From: Lachnospiraceae bacterium
GTDB taxonomy: Bacteria > Bacillota > Clostridia > Lachnospirales > Lachnospiraceae
Length of the DNA: 39,710 nucleotides
Assembly (NCBI GenBank): GCA_024681795.1
Contig: JAILAD010000014.1
Span: 1-39,710 of the forward strand
Direction: 5' to 3'
Below the pieces are notes generated by a model, which was given only the letters and a program-made list of their open reading frames with translations, was not told the origin of the DNA and did not search any database. Numbering within the stretch: position 1 is the stretch's first letter; every line of letters begins with the position of its first letter. Below, one piece after another: positions 28,710 through 30,107 of the stretch. Position numbers and translations under genes: made by a program.

Positions 28710-30107
28710 TTACTTGCGGTTATTGTTTCTCTCCACCACTTCGTCAATGGTTCCGGCATTTAAGAAGAAGCCTTCCGGAATGTCGTCGTGCTTGCCTTCA
28801 AGAATTTCCTTGAATCCGCGGATGGTTTCCGAAATCGGTACGTATTTTCCTTCGAGTCCGGTAAACTGTCCTGCCACGAAGAACGGCTGGGACAAAAATC
28901 TCTGAATCTTTCTTGCACGGCTTACGGTAAGCTTATCGTCTTCGGAAAGTTCGTCCATACCGAGAATTGCGATAATATCCTGAAGTTCTTTATACTTCTG
29001 AAGTACTTCCTGTACCCCGCGGGCTACCTGATAATGCTCAATTCCCACGATTCTGGGATCCAGAATTCTCGATGTGGACTCAAGGGGATCCACAGCCGGA
29101 TAAATACCGAGTTCCACGATTGCACGGGAAAGAACGGTGGTTGCATCCAGGTGGGCGAATGTCGTTGCGGGAGCCGGGTCGGTTAAGTCATCGGCAGGTA
29201 CGTATACGGCCTGTACGGAAGTAATGGAACCGTTTTTGGTGGAAGTAATACGTTCCTGCAGCGCACCCATTTCCGTCTGCAGCGTCGGCTGATAACCTAC
29301 TGCGGAAGGCATACGGCCGAGAAGTGCGGACACCTCGGAACCTGCCTGAGTGAAACGGAATATGTTATCGATGAAAAGGAGCACGTCCTTTCCACCCTTG
29401 TCTCTGAAGTACTCAGCCATAGTTAGTCCGGCAAGACCTACTCTCATTCTTGCTCCCGGGGGCTCGTTCATCTGACCGAAAACCATGGTGGTCTTGTCGA
29501 TAACGCCGGATTCTATCATTTCATAGTAAAGATCGTTTCCTTCACGGGTTCTCTCGCCTACGCCGGTGAACACCGAATAGCCGCCGTGCTCGGTTGCGAT
29601 GTTGGTGATGAGCTCCTGAATAAGCACCGTCTTGCCAACGCCTGCGCCGCCAAACAGACCGATTTTACCACCCTTCTGATAAGGGCAGAGAAGGTCAACG
29701 ACCTTGATACCTGTCTCAAGGATTTCGGTTTCTGTTGACTGCTCGGAGAAGGTAGGTGCCTTGCGGTGTATGGGATAATATTCAACATCGGTGGGTGCGG
29801 GCTTCTCATCAATAGGCTCGCCAAGAACGTTGAACATTCTGCCGAGAGTATTGAGACCGACGGGTACCGAAATGGGTGCGCCGGTTGCCACTGCCTCCAT
29901 GCCTCTGATGAGTCCGTCGGTAGGTCCCATCGCAATACATCTTACCGTATCGTCACCAAGATGCTGGGCAACCTCAACGGTCAGTATCTGGCCGTTTGTA
30001 CGGGTTATCTTTACCGCATCATTGATCTCCGGAAGCTGTCCCTCAGGGAAGCGGATATCAAGTACGGCACCGATTATCTGGGTGATCTTGCCTGTAACTT
30101 TGTTCAT
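28710..30107 (-). CDS. atpD: ATP synthase F1 subunit beta
   Basis: 465 aa. Walker [13 protein letters not shown], catalytic block [14 protein letters not shown], Walker [21 protein letters not shown] and the nucleotide-site SSTKNGSI-like loop ([10 protein letters not shown]). The catalytic subunit. The start at 30107 (MNKVTGKI) is chosen by family alignment; an ATG at 30119 is also possible and neither has a good ribosome site. The first about 250 codons use GAG and include six ATA isoleucines. The last about 215 use mostly GAA and no ATA, so the gene looks like a mosaic with a change near 29250-29560. Confidence 0.96.

Follow-up and report, generated by a model that had tools for sequence, protein, structure and literature searches.

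In mosaics of housekeeping genes that result from homologous recombination, the reading frame is intact and the affinity changes abruptly within the gene. On the side of sequence assembly, the section of PMC8171044 on chimeric nodes describes such a node as a stretch common to related species with several incoming and outgoing arms, and states that nodes left unpartitioned lead to chimeric contigs; according to the same section, nodes with more than two arms exist and make up 1.79% of the candidates in human gut data. Where PMC7111523 treats chimeras in the curation of genome-resolved metagenomes, it calls those of two organisms rare, and names missing paired reads, different coverage and/or a different phylogenetic profile on either side as the signs that reveal them.

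The stretch analyzed here (the window) is the whole of a contig of 39,710 bases, C30, and positions are C30 positions unless another contig is named. It belongs to a 2.75-Mb draft assembly of 88 contigs with a listed completeness of 93.06% and a listed contamination of 1.86%. A second contig of the same assembly, C82 (63,511 bases), is central to the argument. We use g1 for the genus of the binned genome, g45 and g5 for two other genera, and G-numbers for the compared genomes; the binned organism is called A, and the putative owners of the foreign-looking parts of C30 and C82 are called B and D. The minus strand of C30 carries fbp3, atpC, atpD, atpG, atpA, atpH, atpF, atpE and atpB in this order, followed by an ABC ATPase, two open reading frames (ORFs) and AgrB near the right end (Table 1). 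Judging by affinity and composition on both contigs, the break inside atpD is very probably an inter-species assembly chimera and not a biological feature.

Table 1. Blocks, junction and genes of C30, with the evidence for their assignment
Feature	Position	Strand	Evidence
Left block, own genome (g1), ends inside atpD	1..29301		tetranucleotide correlation to genome 0.966-0.969; best g1 DNA identity fbp3 79%, atpC 82%, atpD C-half 90.5%
fbp3 (Firmicute FBPase)	26121..28094	-	Pfam
atpC (epsilon), g1 type	28272..28676	-	Pfam; best matches are seven g1 relatives, 76-82% DNA
atpD, hybrid reading frame	28710..30107	-	ATG at 30107; mechanical ORF extends to TTG at 30188
Junction, 47-bp run identical in C30 and C82 (C82:11381-11427)	29302..29348		within beta-subunit coding stretch; codon change point 29305; informative sites flip
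Right block, foreign (putative organism B), reaches contig end 39710	29349..39710		tetranucleotide correlation to genome 0.640; atpD N-half to atpB nearest g45
atpG, foreign (g45-like)	30290..31165	-	77.4% aa to G427 vs 54-58% to four g1 relatives
atpA, foreign (g45-like)	31304..32809	-	91.6% aa to G427 vs 81.6-82.8% to four g1 relatives
atpH, foreign (g45-like)	32829..33368	-	63.5% aa to G427 vs 28-37% to four g1 relatives
atpF, foreign (g45-like)	33359..33928	-	Pfam; 81.5% aa to G427 vs 39-44% to three g1 relatives
atpE, foreign (g45-like)	33948..34208	-	Pfam; 91.9% aa to G427 vs 69-70% to three g1 relatives
atpB, foreign (g45-like)	34334..35083	-	Pfam; 86.8% aa to G427 vs 53-54% to three g1 relatives
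ABC ATPase, two ORFs without Pfam match, AgrB; foreign-looking	35337..39326	-	Pfam; ATA 42/113; tetranucleotide correlation 0.60 to own genome

The preliminary description had reported that the part of atpD encoding the N-terminal half is rich in GAG and has six ATA codons, and that the part encoding the C-terminal half is poor in GAG and has no ATA. Counting bears this out, with GAG at 13/19 and ATA at 6/22 in the N-half, against 4/17 and 0/16 in the C-half. Compared with each other, these counts are weak on their own (Fisher test, p = 0.0096 for GAG and p = 0.03 for ATA). The codon break is nevertheless firm, because the genes that flank atpD show a strong contrast. The N-terminal style does carry on from atpG to atpB, as had been stated (GAG 66/110, ATA 29/121, CCG 7/44), and is distinct from the style of the left 28.7 kb of C30 (GAG 244/728, ATA 47/557, CCG 184/304), with p = 2.3e-7, 8.5e-6 and 2e-8 for the three codons. 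The C-terminal style had been thought to reach down to position 1. This holds for the atpD C-half and atpC, which are free of ATA, but not further left, where ATA stands at 8% and GAG at 34%. At the far right (35.2-39.7 kb), ATA is still high, but GAG is not (29/76, p = 0.45).

We scanned the ORFs of C30 for a single change in synonymous codon use by likelihood; the scan peaks at 29305, with an LLR of 384. Control stretches of this genome stay at 99-125 (five of 20 kb and three joined ones of 40 kb), at 91 and 108 (two sub-stretches of the left part of C30) and at 104 (C82:20-40 kb). In tetranucleotide usage, three 10-kb pieces taken to the left of the break match the genome closely (correlation 0.966-0.969), and the right block does so much less (0.640); 20 own 10-kb chunks gave 0.929-0.980, while five sampled contig pieces shorter than 10 kb gave no value. 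Of the two measures whose plotting in windows had been proposed as a check, codon use switches sharply at the atpD break, and tetranucleotide usage differs between its two sides. The terminal piece at 35.2-39.7 kb correlates at 0.60 with the host, for which 44 own 4.5-kb chunks gave at least 0.82, at 0.64 with G427 and at 0.71 with the adjacent atp block. Among the loci of relatives, the atp genes of g45 (four loci; ATA 0.14-0.29, GAG 0.49-0.53) fit C30 to the right of the break, and those of g1 (two loci; ATA 0.03-0.04) fit C30 to its left. The right-hand style is not unique to g45, since the atp genes of G004 (g5) have ATA at 0.33 and GAG at 0.55. Composition differs genome-wide on the two sides of the C30 break, as expected of an inter-species assembly chimera.

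However, a high LLR or an odd composition alone is no proof of a misjoin, because a stretch of the own genome, C82:40-60 kb, outscores the C30 break with an LLR of 433. Its change point lies at the edge of an apparent integrase-borne island, and the tetranucleotide correlation of C82:50-60 kb to the genome is 0.785. The low-GC stretch begins at about 4300 of the fragment C82:40001-60000 and correlates at 0.81 with the genome. It opens with a phage integrase (4670-6040 of the fragment) and also carries a C5 cytosine methylase, a MutH-type protein, an AspBHI-like restriction enzyme and a HATPase protein; it is probably an integrated restriction/defence island, that is, an ordinary mobile island.

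Affinity changes at the same place as composition. On the left of the break, the DNA of the C30 atpD C-half is 86.6-90.5% identical to the g1 genomes G085, G086, G070, G089, G063, G082 and G060 (90.5% to both G086 and G085), and its protein is 96-98% identical to four g1 genomes and 85-88% to three g45 genomes. On the right, the atpD N-half and most of the genes upstream were nearest to G044 (g45) in the first set compared, with 79.5% DNA identity over the N-half. Among five g45 genomes searched, G427 is colinear with C30 from the atpD N-half to atpB at 75-85% DNA identity, with 85% over the N-half. The N-half protein is 90-95% identical to three g45 genomes (95.2% to G427) and 85-86% to four g1 genomes. 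Organism B itself was found neither in a sample of the family (344 of 397 genomes scored) nor in the five g45 genomes, G427 being the nearest. Affinity differs on the two sides of one point in C30, as expected of an inter-species assembly chimera.

The leftmost 26 kb or so of C30 (1-26120) are assigned to the host by composition only; 1-8000, the one piece of this part tried by DNA, had no match among the loci compared. At 8522-12869 lies a fatty-acid kinase/phospholipid cluster of a kind ordinary for Firmicutes, made up of two DegV proteins, a FakA-like kinase and PlsX (FA_synthesis). The ORFs of a glycosyltransferase (12896-14086, minus strand) and an alpha/beta-hydrolase (13961-14998, plus strand) overlap head to head by 126 bases where they are predicted to start, and one of the two starts is probably wrong. 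About 1 kb (16162-17130), flanked by dnaB and a 191-aa ORF that has no Pfam match, contains no listed ORF of at least 80 aa, and C30 as a whole has no tRNA match and no Rfam match at the gathering threshold.

The decisive evidence comes from C82. It carries a second atp operon with the reverse mosaic: the genes from the atpD N-half to atpB are of g1 type, and foreign-looking DNA makes up the atpD C-half, atpC and a further 10 kb. The longest run that is identical between the atpD copies of C30 and C82 measures 47 bp, and both contigs switch there. The preliminary description had placed the break at 29250-29560, an interval that the run narrows to 29302-29348. The switch can be followed base by base at 132 informative sites, at which G427 (g45) departs from a base common to four g1 relatives. 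C30 is of g1 type at 48/53 of these sites to the left of the run and at 18/78 to its right (p = 4e-15); C82 is of g1 type at 30/53 to the left and at 71/78 to the right (p = 6e-6). The codon scan of C82:1-20000 agrees, with a peak at 11291 (LLR 368), 90 bases from the run.

The g1 side of C82 has close relatives in G086, with DNA identities of 89.7% for the atpD N-half, 82.7% for atpG (the same level as to G070) and 89.4% for atpA, and atpE and atpB are nearest to other g1 relatives. On the other side, the best DNA identities are 83.1% for the atpD C-half (to G070, g1) and 73% for atpC, and for two genes beyond atpC the loci compared gave short DNA matches at best. The protein of the C82 C-half is 87-89% identical to four g1 genomes and 84-87% to four others. 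This half is nearest to g1 among the genomes compared, yet it stays well below the DNA identity of the C30 C-half to g1. We call it foreign because of this distance and because of the composition of the 11.4-kb block in which it lies.

The native g1 upstream half that is missing from C30 is present complete on the right part of C82, in the same bin. Read together, C30-left and C82-right give the order fbp3-atpC-D-G-A-H-F-E-B-atpI-DUF402, which is also found on single contigs of the g1 relatives G063, G070 and G060. Variants of it have 3.1 kb between fbp3 and atpC (G070), or 0.8 kb there and 2.7 kb between atpI and DUF402 (G060). In G063 and G086, fbp3 directly adjoins atpC, the contig of G086 showing fbp3 to atpH before it ends. 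The missing native arm lies elsewhere in the assembly, as expected of an inter-species assembly chimera. A third F-type alpha/beta-like set is found on contig C15 at about 3675-8253 (ORFs of 579, 319, 466 and 140 aa). Its DNA is 69% identical to C30 atpA and 73% to C30 atpD, and many members of the family show partial atpD matches of this kind; it is probably a second native ATP synthase-type operon.

Separate trees of the two atpD halves, which had been suggested as a further check, conflict with each other, although one of two AU tests was non-significant. They were built from 61 loci (23 of g1, 19 of the family and 19 of 80 named ones) and the two contigs; the C-half tree holds all 61 loci (63 rows) and the N-half tree 54 (56 rows), as seven fell below the 85% coverage filter. 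The C30 C-half lies inside a g1 subclade (99/98) and the C30 N-half groups with G044 (99/95). The C82 N-half lies inside the g1 subclade as sister to G086 (100/99), and the C82 C-half falls outside, with poorly supported placement. Membership of the C30 N-half in the g1 subclade was rejected only moderately (p = 0.035), and that of the C82 C-half was not rejected (p = 0.176), in a tree whose bootstrap had not settled. Conflicting trees are also expected of recombination and cannot tell it from a misjoin.

Homologous recombination would mean that A acquired a g45-like atpB-atpD segment together with a 4.5-kb upstream flank, ending in atpD, so that C30 would be a true mosaic and C82 a separate event or a contaminant. 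In its favour, atpD is sufficiently conserved for such an exchange, the hybrid gene keeps its frame and the gene order fits on both sides. However, the break in C82 falls on the same 47 bp, where the complementary g1 half meets foreign DNA of another composition, and the native upstream half of A is complete in the same bin. Moreover, the right block does not return to g1 before the contig ends: no g1-like sequence was found in 29349-39710, although the donor segment might be longer than what the contig covers. We consider this explanation very unlikely, because it would take two independent donors exchanging with A at one and the same 47-bp site, on two contigs. A real bacterium whose atp operon was split at a 47-bp recombination hot spot, with the halves joined to different genera and two hybrid beta subunits in use, strikes us as highly improbable.

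A crossover in atpD between a native and a foreign operon of one genome, by translocation or inversion, would exchange the flanks and leave C30 and C82 as complementary hybrids. One reciprocal event of this kind gives complementary mosaics at one shared point, as seen, but the two foreign halves should then stem from a single operon whose flanks are alike in composition. In fact, GC is 0.449 in C30-right and 0.524 in C82-left, CTG makes up 0.31-0.35 and 0.60 of their leucine codons and AGR 0.58-0.76 and 0.24 of their arginine codons, and their mutual tetranucleotide correlation is 0.603. For C82-left, the correlation with the host genome is 0.72-0.73, lower than in any of the 20 own 10-kb chunks, and both foreign arms reach contig ends (C30 at 39710, C82 at 1). 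This strong difference in composition means that three genomes, not two, appear to meet at one short stretch.

The neighbouring genes have a bearing on the same question. In C82-left, the order OKR decarboxylase-YkuD-NlpC/P60-870-aa protein-atpC is that found beside the operon of G004 (g5), and G427 has no match to these flanking genes within the 15.9 kb examined. About 3 kb from its atpC, one g45 genome, G044, has a distant relative (24.5%) of the 870-aa protein, a finding that speaks for the two-operon crossover and is the reason why neighbour genes alone cannot separate B from D. The host genome has its own distant copy of this protein on contig C29 (34%). Organism D was not found in the 397-genome family sample or in a sample of 299 genomes searched with the 870-aa protein, the best protein match outside this genome being 44% identical (G004). 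As the foreign arms are unlike each other, we reject a single crossover between two operons of the same genome, which we regard as extremely improbable.

That there is no break at all, and that codon style simply follows expression within one genome with a highly expressed atp operon, has a vanishingly small probability: the atpD-only counts are small (p = 0.01-0.03) and atp genes elsewhere are richer in GAG than their flanks (0.49 vs 0.37 in G427; 0.55 vs 0.39 in G004), but identity to g1 relatives falls inside one gene, ATA stays at 0.03-0.04 in the atp genes of two g1 relatives and the trees conflict, and the base-level mosaic rejects chance as well as expression-level codon variation.

Together, our data suggest a misassembly of at least three related bacteria in one sample, namely A (g1, the binned organism), B (near g45) and D. 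The false join of two genomes, which the preliminary description had offered as one of two alternatives, is strongly supported by the complementary mosaic on C82 at the same 47 bp and by foreign arms of unlike composition. We infer a metagenome sample and a node of the assembly graph as the cause. A short atpD stretch would have been identical, or nearly so, among A, B and D, and the assembler would have collapsed it into one node. The wrong arms would then have been paired, A downstream with B upstream in C30 and D downstream with A upstream in C82, and both hybrid contigs would have been binned with A. The frame is preserved across the shared stretch, which is why neither hybrid atpD gene looks broken.

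As G427, our stand-in for B, differs from C30 at four sites of the 47-bp run and shares only 29332-29351, an A-B identity of k-mer length is something we only infer, and the run common to A and B may be shorter than 47 bp. Neither this nor the low correlations of the terminal piece at 35.2-39.7 kb speak for recombination. A widely shared 47-mer was not found: among the loci compared, the only exact copy outside this genome is in G070 (g1). Nor is the 47-bp window the most conserved one in atpD, ranking 50th of 1351, with some of the top ranks resting on 5-6 homologs. Several contigs of relatives also end inside atpD, at C30 positions of about 29393 (G085:C272), 29513 (G089:C139), 29448 (G089:C168) and 29636 (G076:C140), and in the g45 search G426:C7 and G426:C59 were found to end within the gene as well. 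Assemblies of this kind may repeatedly break or be misjoined in atpD.

An inter-species chimera at this point has consequences for the use of the draft genome. About 10.4 kb of C30 and 11.4 kb of C82 apparently stem from other genomes despite the listed completeness and contamination, and we advise against counting 29349-39710 and C82:1-11380 as part of this genome. The fusion is in frame and affects a gene on which phylogenies are often built, and anyone who trusted the assembly would score it as inter-genus recombination of the ATP synthase. We regard it as an artefact rather than biology, and caution that it could mislead studies of gene transfer. Misjoin and recombination can be separated without reads by finding the other contig that is broken at the same stretch and comparing the foreign arms.

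With recombination mosaics of housekeeping genes, C30 shares the intact frame and the abrupt change of affinity, here within atpD. It differs from them in that the native complement lies on another contig, where it is fused at the same point to foreign DNA of other composition. Of the signs of chimeric scaffolds named in the relevant part of PMC7111523, C30 shows the different phylogenetic profile on either side; the rarity of two-organism chimeras stated there counts against our reading. The standard case of a chimeric node, as the corresponding section of PMC8171044 presents it, has two arms in and two arms out, whereas the two products seen here, C30 and C82, appear to bring together at least three genomes.
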